Shown here in pieces: positions 2,173-34,092 of a stretch of DNA of 34,092 bases (its first letter is position 1; each line of letters begins with the position of its first letter). The stretch is taken from the NCBI GenBank assembly GCA_009996615.1, contig JAACZU010000019.1, forward strand, positions 1-34,092, read 5' to 3'. Source of the DNA: Rhodanobacteraceae bacterium (GTDB lineage Bacteria; Pseudomonadota; Gammaproteobacteria; Xanthomonadales; Rhodanobacteraceae). The notes below the pieces were generated by a model. The model ran no database searches and was not told the origin of the DNA. It was given only the letters and a program-made list of their open reading frames with translations. Made by a program: the position numbers and the translations under genes.

Positions 2173-2322
2173 CTCCAGGCTTCACCGCTGGACGCCCGCA
2201 AATGGCGGTGCTAACGTAATCCACAAGCGAGCGCCCGGGGCCGAGTCCGCCCCGCCCGCTTCTCCCCGCTTCTTTATTCCCCTCCCTCCAGTTCCACCAA
2301 CGGCGCCCAGCGAGGATTGCCC

Positions 2323-3987
2323 GTGTCCGAAAACGAAACGAACGAGAACGGCCAGAGTGCCGTCGCCCCGAGCCGTCCCGAGCCCCGGCAGAAGGCCCCG
2401 CGTGGCCAGCAGTCGCTGCCGCTGCCCGAAGGCGCGGCGGCTCCGGCCGAGCCGCGCAACGACGCCGCGTCGCCGGCAGGCGACGGCGGTGACGGCAATG
2501 CCGCCGCAGCCGCTGCGGCGCAAGGCGCGGGCGGCCAGCCGCAACAGGGCCAGGGCCAGGGCCAGGGCCAAGGCCAGGGTCAGAACCAGGGCCCGGGCCG
2601 CCGTGGGCGGCGCGACCGCCGCGGGCGCCACGGCGGCGGCGGTGGCGGCCAGCCGGCCAACCGCGGCGGCAACTTCGACGAGGACGAACTGGACGACTCG
2701 AAGAACGGCGGCGGCAACGGCCCGCTGATCGACCTCAACGAGCTCAAGCGCAAGAGCGCGGCCGATCTGCTGGCGCTGGCCGAGACGCTGGGCATCCAGG
2801 AAGGCGTCGCGCGCGCGCGCAAGCAGGACATCGTGTTCCTCGTGCTGAAGGCGCATGCGCGCGCCGGCGGCGGCATCTACGGCGAGGGCGTGCTGGAGAT
2901 CCTGCAGGACGGCTTCGGCTTCCTGCGCGGCTTCGACGCGTCCTACCTGGCCGGTCCGGACGACGTCTACGTGTCGCCCTCGCAGATCCGCCGCTTCAAC
3001 CTGCGCACCGGCGACTACATCACCGGCCGCATCCGTCCGCCGAAGGAAGGCGAGCGCTACTTCGCGCTGCTCAAGGTCGACACGATCAACGACGAGCCTC
3101 CGGAGGCATCGAAGAACAAGGTCCTGTTCGAGAACCTGACGCCGCTGTTCCCGCGCAAGGCGTTCCACCTCGAGCGCGGCAACGGTTCGTCCGAGGACAT
3201 CACCGGCCGCATCCTCGACCTCGTCGCGCCGATCGGGCGCGGCCAGCGCGGCCTGATCGTCAGCCAGCCCAAGGCCGGCAAGACGATGATGCTGCAGAAC
3301 GTCGCGCAGGCGATCGTGCACAACCATCCGGATGCGCACCTGATCATGCTGCTGATCGACGAGCGCCCCGAGGAAGTGACCGAGATGCAGCGCAGCGTGC
3401 GCGCCGAGATCATCTCCTCGACCTTCGACGAGCCGGCCGTGCGCCACGTGCAGGTCGCCGAGATGGTGATCGAGCGCGCCAAGCGCCTGGTCGAGCACAA
3501 GAAGGACGTGGTGATCCTGCTCGACTCGATCACGCGCCTGGCGCGCGCCTACAACACGGTAGTGCCGTCCTCCGGCAAGGTGCTGACCGGCGGCGTCGAC
3601 GCGAACGCGCTGCAGCGCCCGAAGCGCTTCTTCGGCGCCGCGCGCAACGTCGAGGAAGGCGGCTCGCTGACGATCATCGCGACCGCGCTGATCGACACCG
3701 GCTCGAAGATGGACGAGGTCATCTACGAGGAGTTCAAGGGCACCGGCAACATGGAAGTGCACCTGAACCGGCGCATCTCGGAAAAGCGCGTCTACCCGGC
3801 CATCGACATCAACCGCTCCGGCACGCGCCGCGAGGAGCTGCTGATCGATCCGGACCAGCTGCAGAAGATCTGGATCCTGCGCAAGCTGCTGCACCCGATG
3901 GACGAGCTGGCGGCGATGGAGTTCATGCTCGACAAGATGAAGAACACGAAGACCAACGACGAGTTCTTCGGCGCGATGAAGCGCTGA
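2323..3987 (+). CDS. rho: Transcription termination factor Rho with long disordered N-terminal insert
   Basis: Hexameric RNA helicase that ends transcription at Rho-dependent sites; it acts on nascent RNA using ATP. The C-terminal about 420 residues are a canonical Rho: cold-shock-like RNA-binding domain ([16 protein letters not shown]), Walker A (QPKAGKT), Walker B region ([12 protein letters not shown]), and the ends of the ATPase core (FRGTGN-like [12 protein letters not shown]). The start is taken as GTG 2323, because GAGGA at 2312-2316 is six bases upstream; an in-frame TTG at 2317 is less likely. About 120 residues before the core are low complexity: Ala-rich, then eight hexanucleotide repeats coding Gly-Gln, then Arg/Gly-rich stretches. 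The protein is therefore about 554 residues against roughly 420 in E. coli. The 3' end is duplicated at 6891-6982. Confidence 0.97.
2545..2592 (+). repeat. Hexanucleotide tandem repeat in rho coding (Gln-Gly)n
   Basis: Eight consecutive six-base units of the type CAGGGC (four exact, then CAAGGC, CAGGGT, CAGAAC, CAGGGC) encode alternating Gln-Gly from about residue 75 of Rho. Since the unit is six bases, gain or loss of copies keeps the frame and would only change the length of the disordered linker. Confidence 0.85.
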
Positions 3988-4050
3988 CTCCGCCTGTCGC
4001 ACGTCCCCACGAAAAAGCCGGCACAAGCCGGCTTTTTCGTTGCATGCCGC
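3958..4050 (+). repeat. Rho 3'-end direct repeat, left copy
   Basis: The last ten or so codons of rho, its stop and its terminator (93 bases) recur at 6891-6982 in the same orientation. By hand alignment about 78 of 92 aligned positions agree, with one base deleted in the right copy. Similarity starts near the codons DEFFG and stops just after the terminator. This is the copy that completes the intact rho gene. Confidence 0.85.
4011..4038 (+). terminator. Rho-independent terminator of rho
   Basis: Twelve-base perfect stem GAAAAAGCCGGC / GCCGGCTTTTTC with an ACAA loop, the right arm carrying five T. The A-rich left arm means that it could also stop transcripts arriving from the minus-strand gene at 4120-4719. 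Confidence 0.92.
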
Positions 4051-4119
4051 CCTCTGTGAGACGAGCCAGAACGGGTTTTCCAGCCGTGGCGCACCAGATA
4101 CCCTGGCGCTTCGCCCCGC

Positions 4120-4719
4120 TTACTCGGCTTGCTCGTCACACTTGGCCTGGGTACTGCCTGCTCCCGTACCATGGCCGGGCGGCGTCCAGTCCAGGCGAGT
4201 CTGGAACCATGGGCCGGGAGGCGGTCCCTTCGCCCGGACCCACGTGATACTGACGCTCCACCCGTCTGCGAATGACGCGCCCGCCGTGTACGTCGTCACG
4301 CCTGGATCACTGTTGACCGACACGGGCGGCAGCAGCGTGGCTGCGGTTGCGGCATCCTGCGCCGGCGGGACCGGTGGCCAGTTGCCACCACCACCGCCGT
4401 CTCCACCGCCACCGTTGTAGCCACCGCCTCCTCCGCCACCGCCACCGCCACCCGGCGTTACCGTGACGGGCGGCAGGCAAATATCCTGCTGCGGCGTTAC
4501 CGGCGGCACCGGCGCCCCCATGCTCCTGAACCAGCCGGCGATATCCTTCACCGGCCTTACGACCGTTACGATCGAGCCGTCCGGCTGCTGGCTGACGATG
4601 GTTTCGGTTGCCGCGCTGATGACACCTGCACCGGCGGGCGCCGCCTCGTTGGCAGCCATAACACCCGCGGCGCGGGCTGCCGTGACAATGACAAGAATGG
4701 CCTTCAGGATCACCTTCAT
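4120..4719 (-). CDS. Exported Gly/Pro-rich protein of unknown function
   Basis: I do not recognise this 199-residue protein. It begins with a short basic, hydrophobic signal peptide (MKVILKAILVIVTAARAAGV, likely cut after VMA or MAA near residues 22-23). A Pro/Val-rich part follows (about 28-88, with one Cys near 81), then a long glycine tract broken by Tyr/Asn/Asp (about 90-113), and a C-terminal part with Trp motifs (FADGWSVSITWVRAKG, WFQTRLDWTPP). A second Cys is near the C-terminus. The ATG has CGGAGA a suitable distance upstream. It is divergent from the response regulator at 4871 and lies in the segment bounded by the duplicated rho ends. A surface or periplasmic role is inferred from the signal peptide only. 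Confidence 0.65.
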   Translation of the reverse strand: MKVILKAILVIVTAARAAGVMAANEAAPAGAGVISAATETIVSQQPDGSIVTVVRPVKDIAGWFRSMGAPVPPVTPQQDICLPPVTVTPGGGGGGGGGGGYNGGGGDGGGGGNWPPVPPAQDAATAATLLPPVSVNSDPGVTTYTAGASFADGWSVSITWVRAKGPPPGPWFQTRLDWTPPGHGTGAGSTQAKCDEQAE

Positions 4720-4870
4720 GGCTCGTACTCTCCGGATTGGACAATGCCGCGGACGTCGAATTGTTCGCGCACCGGTACGCTAACAGGCGAAGCTCACATG
4801 AAGCTCTCGACCCCGGCTTCCGCGCGTCCATGGCGCACCCGGGCGCCCGCTTGCGTTACGCTCCCCACGC

Positions 4871-5536
4871 ATGCACATCCTGATCGTCGAAGACGATGAA
4901 GCGACCGCGCGATCGATCCGCGACGCGCTGCGCGCGGCTGGCCACGAGGCTCGTACGGTCGTCAGCGCCGAGGCCGCGCGCACGGCGCTCAATACCGAAG
5001 CGTTCGACCTCGCGATCGTCGACATCGGCCTGCCCGGCGCCGACGGATTGAGCCTGGTCCGGCATCTTCGCAAGCGCGACATGCATGTGCCCGTTCTGAT
5101 CCTCACCGCACGCGATGCGATCACCGATCGCGTCGGCGCGCTCGATCTCGGCGCCGATGACTACATGGTCAAGCCGTTCGCGCTGACCGAGCTCACCGCG
5201 CGTTGCCGAGCATTGATCCGGCGCAGCCAGCGCGCCGCGAGCAATGAAGTCCGGATCAACGGGCTGGACATCGATTTCGCCATGGCGCGGGCGGTCATCG
5301 ACGGCCGCCCCATCGCGCTGACACGCGGCGAGTGGCGGATGCTCGAACGGCTGGCCATGCAACCAGGCCGTATCGTCGACAAGGAAGTCCTGCGCGCGTC
5401 CCTGGCGCAGGATGAGACCGCGCCGACGCTGCACGCGGTCGAGGCCTGCCTGTCGCGCCTGCGCGCGAAACTCGGCAAGGCGGTATCGATCACGGCCCTG
5501 CGCGGCTTGGGCTACCGGCTCGATGAGACCGATTGA
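4871..5536 (+). CDS. OmpR-family response regulator (TctD/QseB-like), system 1
   Basis: DNA-binding response regulator of 221 residues. The receiver domain has the acidic pocket EDD at 7-9, phospho-acceptor Asp51 (VDIGLPGADG), Thr79 and Lys101 (VKPF). A winged-helix OmpR/PhoB DNA-binding domain follows (about 125-218), ending with GLGYRLDE. It is a clear paralogue of the regulator at 8942-9610: same length class, same receiver motif IGLPGADG, same ALDLGADDY stretch. No strong ribosome-binding site is visible before the ATG. The kinase gene overlaps its end by 14 bases, so the two are translationally coupled. Its target is unknown; the divergent Gly-rich gene is the nearest candidate. Confidence 0.92.
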   Translation: MHILIVEDDEATARSIRDALRAAGHEARTVVSAEAARTALNTEAFDLAIVDIGLPGADGLSLVRHLRKRDMHVPVLILTARDAITDRVGALDLGADDYMVKPFALTELTARCRALIRRSQRAASNEVRINGLDIDFAMARAVIDGRPIALTRGEWRMLERLAMQPGRIVDKEVLRASLAQDETAPTLHAVEACLSRLRAKLGKAVSITALRGLGYRLDETD

Positions 5537-6911
5537 ACGCATTGCGTCGGTCCGCGCGCGCCTGCTTGGCTGGCTGCTGCCGCCCTTGCTGATCGTCGCC
5601 GCGCTCGGCGCCACGCTGGACTACATCCTCGCAGCGCGGATCGTGCGCAGCGGCTTTGACGACGCACTCGGCCAGCTGGCGTCGGCGCTCGCGGCGCGCA
5701 TTGCTCCCGATGCGACCGGGCGACTGCGGCTGCGGCTGTCCGGGGACGACGCAGCCTTGCTGTCCGTGGAGGGCGGCGATACGCGCCATTTCCTGGCGAT
5801 CGGCAGCGATGGCAGCTACATCGCGGGCGACGCACGCTTGCCGGTGCGCAGCGCCAGCAACGATCCGGCACTCGTGCTGCGCGATGTCCAGCATGGGGCG
5901 ATCCGGGTACGCGAAGCCGTCCACCGTGTGCGCATCCACGACCGGGACGTCATCGTTGCCATCGCCGCCACCACGCAGGCGCGCGATGCGACGCTGCGCC
6001 ACCTGTGGGTGGTGACGCTGGGCGGCAGCCTCACGCAGCTGGCATTGGTGCTGGCCATCGTCTGGACCGGCGTGCGGATTGGCCTTGGCGCACTGCTGCG
6101 CCTGCGCGACGCGATCGCGGCGCATGGGCCCGCAGATCTCATGGAGATTCCCGAGTCGGCCGCGCCGGCCGAAGCCAGGCCCCTGCTGCGCGCGATGAAC
6201 CAGGCCATCGTACGTGCGCGGGAAGCCAGCGAGGCGCGCCAGCAATTCGTCGCCGACGCGGCACACCAGTTGCGCCGACCGCTGACCTCGGTACAGGCAG
6301 GGCTCGAGCTGCTTGCGGGAGAGCTGCGCGACTCGCCGCAACGACAGCGGGCACGGGATCTGCTGATCGACAGCCGCCGCCTGGCGCATACGACCCATCA
6401 GTTGCTGGCCCTGGCGCAAGCGGATGCGGTGGCCGCTCGAGGGGACGCACCGACGTCGATTCGACTCGATCGGCTGGTCGCCGACGCCGCCGAGCGCGCG
6501 CTCGACCGCGCGCTCGCTCGCGGCATCGACCTCGGGGTCGACACACGGCCGGCTACCATCGAGGGCGTTCCATGGCTGCTCAACGAGGCACTTTCCAACC
6601 TGATCGACAACGCGCTGCTGTACTGCCCCTGCGGAGCACGCGTCACCGTCCGCTGCGACCATAGCGACGGCGGCGCATTTCTGGAAGTCGAGGACGACGG
6701 CCCGGGGATCGCGCCCGACCTTCGCCAACGCGTGCGCGAGCGCTTCTACCGCGGACGACACCATGGGGTCGACGGCAGCGGGCTTGGCCTTGCGATCGTC
6801 GCCCAGGTCGCGCGCGTGCACGCGGCGGATTTCACGATCGAAGAAGGCGCCGCCGGCCGCGGCACGCGCTGCCGTCTCGACTTCCATCGTGACGGATTCT
6901 TCGGGCGATGA
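5523..6911 (+). CDS. Sensor histidine kinase (TctE/QseC-like), system 1, altered H-box
   Basis: Inner-membrane histidine kinase of about 462 residues, partner of the overlapping regulator. Two membrane segments (about 14-37 and 162-184) flank a periplasmic sensor part resembling the 2CSK N-terminal domain of TctE. The dimerisation/phospho-acceptor motif is ADAAHQLRRPL with His248; the residue four positions on, normally Thr/Asn, is Arg252. The ATPase domain has the N box (LSNLIDNALLY), G1 (EDDGPGIAP) and G2 (GSGLGLAIV). Three cysteines around LLYCPCGARVTVRC are unusual here. The ATG at 5523 fits the start of the paralogue at 9594. The last codons (GFFGR and stop) lie inside the duplicated rho end, so the terminus appears to be formed by a junction. 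Confidence 0.92.
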   Translation: MRPIERIASVRARLLGWLLPPLLIVAALGATLDYILAARIVRSGFDDALGQLASALAARIAPDATGRLRLRLSGDDAALLSVEGGDTRHFLAIGSDGSYIAGDARLPVRSASNDPALVLRDVQHGAIRVREAVHRVRIHDRDVIVAIAATTQARDATLRHLWVVTLGGSLTQLALVLAIVWTGVRIGLGALLRLRDAIAAHGPADLMEIPESAAPAEARPLLRAMNQAIVRAREASEARQQFVADAAHQLRRPLTSVQAGLELLAGELRDSPQRQRARDLLIDSRRLAHTTHQLLALAQADAVAARGDAPTSIRLDRLVADAAERALDRALARGIDLGVDTRPATIEGVPWLLNEALSNLIDNALLYCPCGARVTVRCDHSDGGAFLEVEDDGPGIAPDLRQRVRERFYRGRHHGVDGSGLGLAIVAQVARVHAADFTIEEGAAGRGTRCRLDFHRDGFFGR

Positions 6912-6982
6912 AGTGCTGACTTCACCTGTCTCACATCCCCGCGAAAGAGCCGGCGCACTCCGGCTTTTTCGTTGCCTGCGGC
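6891..6982 (+). repeat. Rho 3'-end direct repeat, right copy
   Basis: A diverged, same-orientation copy of the rho 3' end and terminator (see 3958-4050). One base is missing relative to rho, which shifts the frame so that the rho-derived ATGA supplies the TGA stop of the histidine kinase. Most differences are transitions or fall at former third codon positions or in the terminator loop, while the hairpin itself is kept. Confidence 0.85.
6943..6970 (+). terminator. Terminator after the system 1 kinase, derived from the rho terminator
   Basis: Stem GAAAGAGCCGG / CCGGCTTTTTC with a six-base loop (CGCACT). One A-T pair of the rho original is a G-U pair in the RNA, so the 11-base stem is preserved. 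Five T are in the right arm. Confidence 0.88.
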
Positions 6983-7386: not shown

Positions 7387-8820
7387 ATGAATGGATCTGC
7401 AAGCAACACCCGCCTGCGGCTGAAGCCGTTGTCGGCCTGTCTCGCGCTCGCGCTCTGCGTCAGCACCTCCAGTACCGCGCTCACGGCAGCGCAGCCGGCC
7501 CATGCCGCGCCCGGCGCCGGCTTCGCCGCCCGCCACACGGTCCAGCGCACCGGCGCAGGCTTCCTGCGCATGCAGCAGGAGCGCCTGGAGCGCGGCTGGC
7601 TGCAGGCGCGCGCGGTCGCCAAGCGTCCCGCCACGACGCTGCCGGTGACCTCGTGCGCCGATGACGGCAGCGGCGGTACCTTGCGCGAAGTCGTGGCCGG
7701 CGCGGTCGACGGCGACACGGTCGACCTGTCCGCGCTGACCTGCAGCACCATCTCGCTGGCCCAGGGTGGCATCGCGATCAACGTCGACAACCTGAGCATG
7801 GTCGGCCCCGGCGCGGACAAGCTGACGATCGACGGCGGCGGCATGGACACCGTCCTGAACTTCTATGGCGGATCCGGCGGCGGCGGCACGCTGCAGATCA
7901 GCGGCTTGACCGTGGCCAACGGCTTCTACGAGGACTTCGGCGGCGGCGGCATCTGGACCGGCCAGGGCGGCAGCGTGGAGCTGACCAATTCGGTCGTCAC
8001 CAACTCCACCTCGACCGGCATGTACGCCAGCGGCGGCGGCATCTTCGCCGCCGGCAACGTCACGCTGGTCAACTCGACCGTGTCGAACAACACTGCCAGC
8101 AGCAGCAAGTACGACGGCATCGGCGGCGGCGTCTACGCCAAGGGCGACCTGACCGTCGTCAACAGCACGATCTCCGGCAACACGGCCAAGGCCGACGGAA
8201 GCTACGTCGGCTACTACGGCTACACCTACGACGGCTACGGTCTCGGTGGCGGCGCCGCCGCCGTCGGTACGACGCGCATCTCCAACTCGACGATCAGCGG
8301 CAACGCGGCCGCGATCGGCGGCGGCGTGTTCGCGATGTCGCTGGAGTCGCTGCAGAACAGCACGGTCACGCTCAACAAGGCGCTGCCGGAGAACAGCTCG
8401 GTCGGCTTCGGCGAGGGCGGCGGCATCGCCGTCAATGGCAATGCCGGCCCCGGCACGCTCGACAGCAACATCCTGTTCGGCAACAGCGGCGGCGGCGGCT
8501 ACTACGGTGCCGACCTCGGCGGCCTGACCACGGTGGTCGGCTCGAACAACCTGATCGGCAGCTCGACCAGCCCGGTGCCAGCCGACACCTTGTCGGCCGA
8601 TCCACTGCTGCTGCCGCTGGCGAACAACGGCGGCCCGACCATGACCCACGCACTCGGCGCGGCCAGCCCGGCGATCGACAGCGGCAGCAATCCCGGCAAC
8701 CTGACTACCGACCAGCGCGGTGGCGCGTTCGCCCGCGTGTCGGGCAGCGCGGCCGACATCGGCGCGTTCGAAGTGCAGCAGGTCGACGCGATCTTCGTCG
8801 ACGGCTTCGAGCAGCGCTGA
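7387..8820 (+). CDS. Secreted parallel beta-helix protein with choice-of-anchor-Q-like end and IF-x-DGFE tail
   Basis: Exported protein of 477 residues. The start at ATG 7387 (MNGSASNTRLRLK) is chosen because it gives a typical signal peptide (hydrophobic ACLALALCVSTSS, likely cleavage after AHA near residue 41) and GGGAA precedes it; the frame is open further upstream without coding character. The mature part has repeated right-handed beta-helix/adhesin-like rungs (NSTVSNNTA, NSTISGNTA, GGGI/GGGV turns). A conserved block (LANNGGPTMTHAL, SPAIDSG, TDQRG, ADIGAFE) matches the end typical of choice-of-anchor Q domains. The last residues are DAIFVDGFEQR, a short C-terminal motif found on many exported proteins of Rhodanobacteraceae. 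It lies between the two paralogous two-component systems. Confidence 0.88.
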   Translation: MNGSASNTRLRLKPLSACLALALCVSTSSTALTAAQPAHAAPGAGFAARHTVQRTGAGFLRMQQERLERGWLQARAVAKRPATTLPVTSCADDGSGGTLREVVAGAVDGDTVDLSALTCSTISLAQGGIAINVDNLSMVGPGADKLTIDGGGMDTVLNFYGGSGGGGTLQISGLTVANGFYEDFGGGGIWTGQGGSVELTNSVVTNSTSTGMYASGGGIFAAGNVTLVNSTVSNNTASSSKYDGIGGGVYAKGDLTVVNSTISGNTAKADGSYVGYYGYTYDGYGLGGGAAAVGTTRISNSTISGNAAAIGGGVFAMSLESLQNSTVTLNKALPENSSVGFGEGGGIAVNGNAGPGTLDSNILFGNSGGGGYYGADLGGLTTVVGSNNLIGSSTSPVPADTLSADPLLLPLANNGGPTMTHALGAASPAIDSGSNPGNLTTDQRGGAFARVSGSAADIGAFEVQQVDAIFVDGFEQR

Positions 8821-8941: not shown

Positions 8942-9610
8942 ATGCGTATCCTTGTGGTCGAAGACGATGCCCTGGTGGCCGACGCGATTTGCCGCGGACT
9001 CGGCCGCAGTGGCTTTGCGGTCGATCACGTCGGCAGCGCCGAACACGCCGAGGCCGCGCTCGAACTCGAGCACTTCGACCTGGCGATCATCGACATCGGC
9101 CTGCCCGGCGCCGACGGCCTCGCCCTCGTGCGCCGCCTGCGCGCGGCCGGGCGCGCGCTGCCGGTGCTGATCCTGACCGCGCGCGACGGCCTCGCCGACC
9201 GCGTCGACGCGCTCGACCTCGGCGCCGACGACTACCTGGTCAAGCCGTTCGAGTTGCCCGAGCTGGCCGCGCGCAGCCGCGCGCTGATCCGCCGCATGCG
9301 CTCGGTGGCGAGCGCGCGCCTGGCCATCGGCGAGCTCGCGCTCGACCTGGCCGCGCGCAGCGCGCACGTCGGCGGCGATCCGCTCGAACTGACCCGGCGC
9401 GAGTGGTCGATCCTCGAATGCCTCGCGCTGCAGGCCGGCCGCGTCGTCGCCAAGGACCGCCTGCTGCAGGCGATCGCGGGCTGGGACGAGGAGATCAGCC
9501 ACAACGCGATCGAGGTGTACGTGTCGCGCCTGCGCGCCAAGCTCGGCGCCGCCGCCGCGATCCATACGGTGCGCGGCATCGGCTACCGCCTCGATGACGT
9601 CGCCCACTGA
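8942..9610 (+). CDS. OmpR-family response regulator (TctD/QseB-like), system 2
   Basis: Response regulator of 222 residues with receiver motifs EDD (7-9), phospho-acceptor Asp51 in IDIGLPGADG, Thr79 in LILTA and Lys101 in VKPF. An OmpR-type winged helix follows, ending GIGYRLDD. The ATG is the only sensible start. It is strongly similar along its whole length to the regulator at 4871-5536, so the two arose by duplication or by acquisition of a relative. The gene overlaps the kinase gene by 17 bases. Its promoter would lie in the gap after the beta-helix gene. Confidence 0.94.
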   Translation: MRILVVEDDALVADAICRGLGRSGFAVDHVGSAEHAEAALELEHFDLAIIDIGLPGADGLALVRRLRAAGRALPVLILTARDGLADRVDALDLGADDYLVKPFELPELAARSRALIRRMRSVASARLAIGELALDLAARSAHVGGDPLELTRREWSILECLALQAGRVVAKDRLLQAIAGWDEEISHNAIEVYVSRLRAKLGAAAAIHTVRGIGYRLDDVAH

Positions 9611-10973
9611 CCATGCCGGCAGCGTGCAGCGGCGCCTGCTCGGCCTGCTGCTGATCCCGCTCGCGCTGCTGCTCGCCGGCGGCATCCTGCTCGACTACAC
9701 GATCGTCATCAGGCCGATTCCGGCGGCCTACGACCAGGCCCTGGTCAACGCCGCGCTCGGCATCGCCGCGCACGTGGAGGTCGATGCGAACGGCCATGTC
9801 ACCGCCGACCTGTCGCAGCAGGCCGACACGCTGCTGCGCAGCGACCGCTACGACGCGGTCTACTACCTCGTGTCCGGCCCCGATGGCGGCTATCTCGCCG
9901 GCGACCGCGATCTGCCGGTCGCGCCGGGCGACCCGCGCAAGCCGACGTATCGCGACACCGAGTTCCGTGGCGATCCGATCCGGGTGGCGAGCGATCGCGT
10001 GCCGACTGCCGCCGGCGTGGTCACGGTCAGCGTGGCCGAGACGCTGCACAAGCGCGAACGCGCGCGCCGGCGCGTGCTGGTCAGCCTGGTCGGCACCGAC
10101 CTGCTGCAGCTCGGCGCCACGCTGCTGCTGGCCTGGATCGGCGTGCGCTACGGGCTGCGTCCGCTGCGCGCGCTGCGCGACCAGATCGCGGCGCGCTCGG
10201 CGCGCGACCTCGCCCCGCTCGACCTGGCCCCGGTGCCGGGCGAGGTGCGCCCGCTGGTGCGCGCGCTGAACCGCCTGCTCGCGACCGTGCGCGAGGCCGC
10301 CGAGGCGCAGCAGCGCTTCCTCGCCGACGCCGCGCACCAGCTGCGCACGCCGCTCGGCGGCATCCAGGCGCAGCTCGAGCTGCTCGCCCACGACCCCGGC
10401 GCGGCGCCGCTGCGCGACCGCGTGCGGGCCCTGCATGAAGGGTCGCGCCGCGCCGCGCACACCGCCAACCAGCTGCTCGCGCTGGCGCGCGCGGAGCCGT
10501 CGGCGGTGGTCGCCGGCGACATCCGCCCGGTCGACCTGAAGGCACTGGTCACCGATGCGGTGGCGACGCAGTTCGACCGTGCGCTCGCTGCGCACCAGGA
10601 CCTCGGCGCCGAGACCGAACCGGTCCACGTGGCCGCCAGCGACTGGCTGCTGCGCGAGCTGCTCGCCAACCTCCTCGACAATGCACTCGCATACACGCAG
10701 GCCGGCGGCCACGTCACCGTGCGCTGCGGCGCCGACGGCGCCGGCGCGTTCCTCGAGGTCGAGGACAACGGTCCGGGCATCCCGCCGGCGCTGCGCGGGC
10801 GCGTGCGCGAGCGCTTCTACCGCCTGCCCGGCTCGCGCGGCAACGGCTGCGGCCTGGGCCTGGCCATCGTCGACGGCATCGCCCGCCTGTATGGCGCCGA
10901 GCTCGGCATCGACGAAGGCGCCGACGGCCGCGGCACGCGCGTGCGCGTGCGCTTCGCCCACCGGCTTGCCTGA
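9594..10973 (+). CDS. Sensor histidine kinase (TctE/QseC-like), system 2
   Basis: Membrane histidine kinase of 459 residues. It has an N-terminal membrane segment (about 13-35), a 2CSK-like periplasmic sensor region, a second membrane segment (about 163-186), and HAMP-like/HisKA parts with ADAAHQLRTPL (His248 and the usual Thr252). The ATPase domain shows LLANLLDNALAY (N box), EDNGPGIPP (G1) and GCGLGLAIV (G2). His248 has the same number as in the kinase at 5523, which underlines the paralogy; unlike that protein, this one keeps the Thr linked to phosphatase activity. It overlaps its regulator by 17 bases. The signal it senses is not evident. Confidence 0.94.
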   Translation: MTSPTDHAGSVQRRLLGLLLIPLALLLAGGILLDYTIVIRPIPAAYDQALVNAALGIAAHVEVDANGHVTADLSQQADTLLRSDRYDAVYYLVSGPDGGYLAGDRDLPVAPGDPRKPTYRDTEFRGDPIRVASDRVPTAAGVVTVSVAETLHKRERARRRVLVSLVGTDLLQLGATLLLAWIGVRYGLRPLRALRDQIAARSARDLAPLDLAPVPGEVRPLVRALNRLLATVREAAEAQQRFLADAAHQLRTPLGGIQAQLELLAHDPGAAPLRDRVRALHEGSRRAAHTANQLLALARAEPSAVVAGDIRPVDLKALVTDAVATQFDRALAAHQDLGAETEPVHVAASDWLLRELLANLLDNALAYTQAGGHVTVRCGADGAGAFLEVEDNGPGIPPALRGRVRERFYRLPGSRGNGCGLGLAIVDGIARLYGAELGIDEGADGRGTRVRVRFAHRLA

Positions 10974-24155: not shown

Positions 24156-24230
24156 GTGCGCGCAGGATACGCCGTGGCGGCGTGGTCTGCTTTCGCCCGA
24201 CGGCTGGACGCAAGAGGAGGGGGCGAGCCC

Positions 24231-24428
24231 TGTGGGAGCGCCGGCAGGCGCGATGCTCTCCTGCCGCAAACGCATCGCGGCTTCCGCCGCTCCCACATAA
24301 GCCCGGCGAAGGCGCGTCGGCCTGCGGATTACGAGGCTGGCGCCAGAAGAGGTGCGAGCCCTGTGGGAGCGCCGGCAGGCGCGATGCTCTCCTGCCACAA
24401 AGGCATCGCGGCTTCCGCCGCTCCCACA
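24231..24428. repeat. Two direct copies of a GTGGGAGC REP pair (BIME)
   Basis: Two 67-base elements (24231-24297 and 24362-24428), 131 bases apart with similar flanks, nearly identical. Each begins with GTGGGAGCGCC-GGCA-GGCGC, a stem-loop, and ends with the inverted GCGGC-TTCC-GCCGC stem-loop followed by TCCCACA. The same two stem-loops, in the opposite order, make up the array at 33778-34092. They fill the space between the hydroxylase and trpS genes. Confidence 0.85.
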
Positions 24429-24461
24429 TAAGCCCGGCGCAGGCGCGACGCGCCGCAACGA

Positions 24462-33777: not shown

Positions 33778-34092
33778 TGGTGGCAGCGGCGGAAGCCGCG
33801 ATGCTCTTGCCGCGCTCCCGCAAGTCGGGCCACCAAAATCATCGCGCCTGCCGGCGCTCCCACAGGGGACTCGTTCGCCGTGGACGCCTGTGGTGGGAGC
33901 GGCGGAAGCCGCGATGCTCTTCCCGCTCTCCCGCAAGTCGGGCCACCAAAATCATCGCGCCTGCCGGCGCTCCCACAGGGGACTCGTTCGCCGTGGACGC
34001 CTGTGGTGGGAGCGGCGGAAGCCGCGATGCTCTTCCCGCTCTCCCGCAAGTCGGGCCACCAAAATCATCGCGCCTGCCGGCGCTCCCACAGG
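33778..34092. repeat. Tandem array of 113-bp units built from inverted GTGGGAGC REPs, cut by the window end
   Basis: Units start at 33778, 33891 and 34004, exactly 113 bases apart; the third is cut after 89 bases. Each carries a stem-loop GCGGC-GGAA-GCCGC, a centre with CTCCCGCAAGTCGGGCCACC, an inverted stem-loop GCGCC-TGCC-GGCGC with CTCCCACA, and a linker (GGGGACTCGTTCGCCGTGGA). Units 2 and 3 appear identical over the visible part; unit 1 has a few changes. No gene is present. The array probably continues beyond the window. Confidence 0.9.

Follow-up and report, generated by a model that had tools for sequence, protein, structure and literature searches.

We analyzed a 34,092-nt stretch of DNA (the window) on contig C19 (JAACZU010000019.1) of the 3.91-Mb genome of a Rhodanobacteraceae bacterium (GCA_009996615.1, here G000), in which the 3′ end of rho is found twice, on either side of a 2.9-kb cassette carrying a Gly-rich protein and a two-component system. 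The rho gene itself is intact (2317..3987, + strand, 556 aa; NCBIfam Rho equivalog, E = 2e-207). Its tail, consisting of the last 27 nt of coding sequence, the stop codon, the 3′ untranslated region (UTR) and an intrinsic terminator, occupies positions 3958..4050 on the + strand (hairpin at approximately 4009-4040), and a displaced copy lies on the same strand at 6891..6982 (hairpin at approximately 6941-6972). A reading of this DNA made earlier from the letters alone (the sequence-only reading) had stated that the end of rho recurs there in the same orientation with one base lost, and a global alignment confirmed it: 78 of 93 columns were identical, with a single one-base gap. The local alignment score of the pair was 109, versus 32 or less in 60 shuffles (three-base blocks, 7.8 kb of the window), which ruled out a chance origin. 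When the G000 genome was searched, the second copy was retrieved with E = 1.9e-21; the next best match covered 31 of the 131 query bases, and no further match in the genome had a length comparable to that of the pair. Both hairpins folded (proximal, −24.5 kcal/mol, z = −7.1; distal, −20.7 kcal/mol, z = −3.8), although a pattern scanner for terminators called none in the repeat region.

The first gene of the cassette (4120..4719, − strand) encodes the Gly-rich protein, which is 199 aa long, has no Pfam match and is probably exported, judging by its look only. It is followed by RR1, an OmpR-type response regulator (4871..5536, + strand; Pfam Response_reg and Trans_reg_C), and by HK1, a 2CSK_N histidine kinase recognized by Pfam (5523..6911, + strand). 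The content proposed in the sequence-only reading, an exported Gly-rich protein and a two-component system, thus agreed with the genes and Pfam matches for the regulator and the kinase; export was again a matter of appearance. The C-terminal end of HK1 lies inside the displaced rho tail: its final six codons and stop (6891-6911, frame checked) belong to the distal copy, in which the one-base deletion shifts the stop upstream of rho's own stop, and HK1 ends there.

The anatomy described for the window, with the gene end kept whole, then cargo, then the displaced end beyond, was found again at rho in two other genomes (G028 and G152) and at a second gene, ahcY, in three (G000, G005 and G008). 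Displaced rho tails with coding sequence were present in 3 of the 78 rho loci, with one tail in G000, two in G028 and one in G152. The stretches examined reached 3.4 to 30 kb behind rho (less than 8 kb in four of the 78), and more distant tails would escape. The three rho tails of G028 are separated by an acyltransferase and a sulfatase-family cassette; in G152, a related sulfatase cassette separates the two tails. The content behind rho was variable across 20 genomes of the genus that we designate g14. Tail 1 of G028 was nearest to the tail of G062 (79%, next 59%), and the acyltransferase behind rho is the same in G062 (80% over 1.14 kb); in this case, a tail and its cassette occur together in another species. 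Tail 2 was nearest to that of G146 (83%, next 76%), and behind rho G146 carries a sulfatase cassette with 48% identity, a pairing of tail and cassette that is only suggestive. Tail 3 was approximately equally near to G144, G143 and G049 (76%).

Matches limited to the UTR and terminator were left out of this count (g14 rho loci G142, G144, G150, G155, G156 and G143, and a weak match in G062), because the genus uses a stereotyped hairpin and because, in several of these loci, the terminator of another gene precedes the resident block. Inverted, terminator-only or local-repeat self-matches in G018, G043, G044, G045, G011 and G013 were also left out, as were a 22-nt match in G015, which by eye lies inside the next gene, and many short self-matches with E between 0.001 and 0.1.

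For ahcY, we chose 31 genomes (every one of the 16 in the window's genus, plus 15 others) from the 223 with a match among 233 searched, and NCBIfam confirmed ahcY and metF in the loci used. Three of the 31 genomes had displaced ahcY tails: two tails in G000, one in G005 and one, weak, in G008 (E = 2.4e-4). Together with rho, this gave eight displaced tails; stacks of two were seen twice, behind rho in G028 and behind ahcY in G000. At the latter locus, three tails were observed, namely, the gene itself, a short copy approximately 1.33 kb downstream and a 77-residue copy approximately 3.2 kb downstream; the cargo interspersed among them encodes a protein that matches NHL weakly and a beta-helix protein. 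In G005, a 177-residue copy of ahcY lies past a cassette with MazEF-like and nucleotidyltransferase-like genes, and in G008 a decayed copy, found only by a tail model, lies past an esterase. The rho and ahcY cassettes (acyltransferase, sulfatase, esterase, beta-helix, weak NHL match, MazEF-like and two-component system) had no relation to one another. The search of 233 genomes also gave two ahcY matches in G001 (gene divided between contig ends), G008 (gene interrupted close to the end of a contig), G144 (9% estimated contamination) and G177.

In those of the 31 genomes in which metF was located, it lay between 3 nt and 11.6 kb from ahcY; the distance was 3 to 71 nt in G001, G003 and G006, and metF was not found in the fetched stretch behind ahcY in 10 of the 31. 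The interval between these genes is a hot spot for gene gain. It also holds a second setting of the window's cassette: in G011 (contig C95), the Gly-RR1-HK1 module lies directly behind ahcY, between ahcY and metF, with a homologue 60% identical to the Gly-rich protein adjoining the relatives of RR1 and HK1. A scan of G000 for copies of gene tails gave 72 pairs, from which pairs longer than 400 nt and families of more than four copies were set aside; no third gene with tail copies appeared in the 0.846 Mb scanned (0.755 Mb unselected), only rho and ahcY. Short repeat families with up to 66 matches were present in the same part of the genome, and in the window tandem repeats (periods of 113 nt and 131 nt) were noted at 33778-34092 and 24220-24450, sharing a common core that occurs in both orientations.

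The sequence-only reading had proposed that relatives be compared for rho followed directly by the beta-helix gene that lies past the displaced tail, or by other cargo, and comparisons at rho and ahcY gave insert-free alleles for the insertions in G005, G152 and G028 (the window's own site is considered below). In G004, the 7.8 kb that begin at the end of its single ahcY were collinear (88.7%) with the distal copy in G005 together with the DNA beyond it. The DNA behind rho in G149 was collinear with that past the distal copy of G152, over 242 nt at 69% and then over 6.7 kb at 87.9%. The block past the third rho tail of G028 starts 72-179 nt behind rho in G147, G148, G144 and G154 (70-86%). Because these insert-free relatives are collinear past the distal tail, the distal tail in G005, G152 and G028 is the resident gene end, and the stretch that precedes it the insert.

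The duplicated stretches were not of one length. The rho copies are detectable from 27 nt before the stop in G000, approximately 62 and 26 nt before it in G028, and 114 nt before it in G152; the ahcY copies are detectable from approximately 34 and 231 nt before the stop in G000 and 531 nt before it in G005, the start in G008 being indistinct. The well-preserved copies among these begin 114, 231 and 531 nt before the stop. At rho of G000 and in G005, the shared stretch ends at or just past the terminator. Neither a fixed attachment core nor a constant duplication length is seen, whereas a site used by a tyrosine recombinase is expected to give a constant core. By eye, the rho and ahcY ends showed no common core. 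No mobility genes were found among the cassettes examined by Pfam (that of the window and the other rho and ahcY cassettes). A search of G000 for Phage_integrase (PF00589), the only family and the only genome searched in this way, gave no match on C19 or C6, the contigs of its two loci; all seven matches were on other contigs. The statement of the sequence-only reading that no integrase is present holds to that extent. Its proposal that rho serves as an attachment site is not supported: the duplication length is variable, PF00589 is absent from both contigs, ahcY serves as well, and tail 1 of G028 pairs with G062.

We consider it somewhat more probable than otherwise that the 2.9-kb stretch is a cargo cassette captured behind rho by homology-anchored recombination with DNA of a relative; recombination with a relative was one of three options named in the sequence-only reading (beside a reduced island and a cargo moved in trans), and fits best. 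The incoming DNA would have carried a rho end, a terminator and the cassette. The left crossover with the resident gene would have been homologous, and the right end would have been joined, with no long homology, somewhere within the 3′ end of the resident rho. In this way, rho would have been kept whole with the donor's end, and the old end would have been pushed past the cassette, where the displaced terminator now follows HK1 and the displaced rho sequence provides the HK1 stop codon. Repeated events would stack cassettes, the newest nearest the gene. The duplications point to joints upstream of the crossover or, in a variant with the same product, single-crossover integration of circularized fragments. 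Entry may have been by natural transformation. ComEC- and DprA-family genes are present in G000; in G008 (86% complete), no ComEC was detected. Homology-anchored capture is favored because it accounts for the variable joints, the whole gene, the lack of an element-borne enzyme and the tail that travels with its cassette. The UTR of rho in G028 matched G062 at 77%, versus 23-33% for G144, G154 and G146.

A number of observations weigh against capture by homology. Neither an insert-free allele nor a donor was found for the window's own rho insertion among the relatives' rho loci compared. Windowed identity showed no clear switch in the coding sequence of G028 rho, G152 rho or G005 ahcY, and no donor tract was visible there; the donor signal is confined to the UTR. 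The proximal ahcY tail of G005, the expected donor end, was nearer to G004 than the distal tail was (92.8 vs 89.9%), and both G005 UTRs were alike. G142 and G152 also carry the sulfatase cassette behind rho, with tails that are not near tail 2 of G028 (71% or less), and neither G062 nor G146 yielded coding sequence of a displaced tail at rho. Some of the short copies may look short through decay. All eight tails are duplications and not deletions of the kind produced by homology-facilitated illegitimate recombination (HFIR), although recipient DNA may also have been lost behind the tails, and microhomology is not established. The presence of the ComEC and DprA families says little, because most control genomes, Escherichia coli included, have both. 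Finally, the Gly-RR1-HK1 module lies behind rho in G000 but behind ahcY in G011; homology within a single gene does not account for this, nor for the module's first arrival at each place, and tail copies are restricted to these two genes in the 0.755 Mb of unselected G000 sequence.

It is mainly this restriction that keeps a hidden site-specific system in play. A recombinase acting in trans might insert circular cassettes, each with a replacement gene end, at the 3′ ends of rho and ahcY. Just two target genes were seen, both left with a whole end at each insertion and with no third site in the unselected sequence; the stacking of cassettes at the same point, and the finding of one module behind both genes, would also fit. 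We nevertheless regard it as unlikely, given the unequal starts of the well-preserved duplications, the absence of PF00589 from the two G000 contigs and the lack of a core common to the rho and ahcY ends when compared by eye. A bolder form of this idea is a dedicated, still unseen insertion system that would recognize the 3′ ends of rho and ahcY, add cassettes in last-in-first-out order without a cassette-borne enzyme, and renew the gene end and terminator each time, as an integron-like array built on housekeeping genes; this is speculative and has rather little probability.

Another explanation, which we hold to be quite improbable, would do without any insertion: just the 92-nt rho tail might have been copied ectopically behind an older HK1 as a borrowed terminator. 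The copy in the window is indeed short, and it gives HK1 its stop and terminator. HK1-type DNA is also found behind rho elsewhere, as a decayed piece directly after the rho terminator of G014 (locus L049), and the module may thus be an old neighbor of rho. Set against this, the displaced copies elsewhere precede the resident genes of insert-free relatives, and those at ahcY can be longer (231 and 531 nt). G009 has the same flanking sequence as the G014 locus, without the HK1-type piece.

The remaining explanation is suggested by the genes past the displaced tail. These are the gene of the beta-helix protein (7387..8820, + strand; Pfam Beta_helix), then RR2 (8942..9610, + strand), a response regulator 65-70% identical to regulators behind rho elsewhere, and its partner kinase HK2 (9594..10973, + strand; Pfam). 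Two related two-component pairs accordingly stand in tandem, with a rho tail before each block, and an ancestral block of rho tail, regulator and kinase might have been doubled locally, the Gly-rich and beta-helix genes being added later. The tails themselves would agree with this. When both were compared with the rho ends of relatives, as the sequence-only reading had advised, the G000 tails were nearest to each other (84%), with at most 76% to any of 12 congeners; this 58-nt measure is coarse, because congeners have a median of 67% among themselves and tails of other genera reach 79% to the proximal tail (G027).

The two-component genes point the other way. RR1 and RR2 were only 53% identical, and HK1 and HK2 only 46%, whereas in G004 and G005, our yardstick (itself coarse), rho tails that are 83% alike go with regulators and kinases that are 84% and 83% identical. 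In the trees, RR1 grouped with the G011 C95 regulator (support 0.998), and HK1 formed a clade with the G011 C95 kinase and the G014 remnant (support 1.0), not with RR2-HK2. By these trees and identities, RR1-HK1 is not a young copy of RR2-HK2. The cassettes of the other arrays are, moreover, unrelated. Simple tandem duplication of the tail with its two-component system is disfavored by the tree and, more coarsely, by the comparison of tail and protein identity, and we consider it very unlikely.

RR2-HK2 is probably an older neighbor of rho, because 12 of the 60 other rho loci compared were followed by an RR2-type regulator (120-204 nt behind rho in 10 and at 1.4-1.6 kb in two), and 10 of the 12 by an HK2-type kinase as well. 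The suggestion is a soft one: in the kinase tree, HK2 of G000 grouped with G046 and G023 kinases encoded away from rho. Among congeners, a relative of RR2-HK2 lies away from rho in G004 (C30), G005 (C1), G010, G011 (C209), G012, G013 and G015, at a distance of tens to hundreds of kilobases where the contig is shared, and otherwise on a different contig. No second rho tail and no intact Gly-RR1-HK1 module occurred in the rho stretches of 12 congeners; the congeners G001, G003 and G008 had no usable rho locus.

Among 119 relatives, the best homologue of the window's beta-helix protein was found in G008 (C194, 57%). A short C-terminal stretch resembling I-F-x-x-G/D-F-D/E (window 8790-8820; also loci L268 and L244, the ahcY loci of G000 and G011) was seen by eye to be common to otherwise unlike proteins, namely, two beta-helix proteins and the NHL-type protein of G000 and the beta-helix protein of G011. 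It is possibly a sorting signal.

Several known systems resemble the arrangement in part. Islands inserted by tyrosine recombinases at conserved genes (e.g., dusA) restore the gene end, leave the displaced end beyond the insert and reuse the site. The loci described here share all three features, but they differ in the absence of PF00589 from the two G000 contigs and in showing no fixed core. For comparison with an integron, which is defined by an IntI integrase and attC sites, the same absence of PF00589 from C19 and C6 applies. The minimal mobile elements of Neisseria are different small cassettes that lie between conserved genes without mobility genes, which resembles the arrangement here as far as the cassettes compared with Pfam show; displaced gene ends, present at our loci, are to our knowledge no part of that concept.

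The closest printed model is that for the stacked immunity genes of Vibrio cholerae. For its type VI secretion system (T6SS) effector-immunity arrays, sequential displacement by HFIR has been proposed, with no evidence of an integrase reported (Kirchberger et al. 2017, PMC5361080). As there described, upstream homology lets a new module in, the old 3′ part is pushed downstream and events stack, which is similar to what is proposed here. However, the gene displaced in that account is the effector gene beside the anchor, whereas at our loci the housekeeping anchor stays whole and the cargo is unrelated (PMC5361080). In the laboratory, HFIR reportedly usually deletes recipient sequence, mostly uses 3-10 bp of microhomology and gives inserts of approximately 1 kb on average (PMC3240628). 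The proposed combination of one homologous and one illegitimate end is shared with HFIR, and we count the insert size as a likeness; the duplicated gene ends are a difference, HFIR products, as that source describes them, generally carrying a deletion and mostly microhomology (PMC3240628). The same source reports single-crossover integration of circularized fragments as a fate of linear DNA in E. coli (PMC3240628), and transformation can also produce partial duplications (PMC3784515). In our searches of the open-licence literature, we found no description of cassettes stacked with displaced ends at rho or ahcY.

The observation is confirmed and extends beyond the window, and with moderate confidence homology-anchored capture replaces the attachment-site reading. 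We regard the displaced ends of housekeeping genes as scars left by successive gains of cassettes. Duplicated behind cargo unrelated to the gene, such ends would record capture where no mobile element is visible, and they allow homology-driven capture to be tested against a hidden recombinase. Should the pattern hold at the strain level, it would order gene gains at fixed places, and housekeeping genes would anchor gene capture and yet stay intact, which would help to explain the variability behind rho and ahcY among these species.

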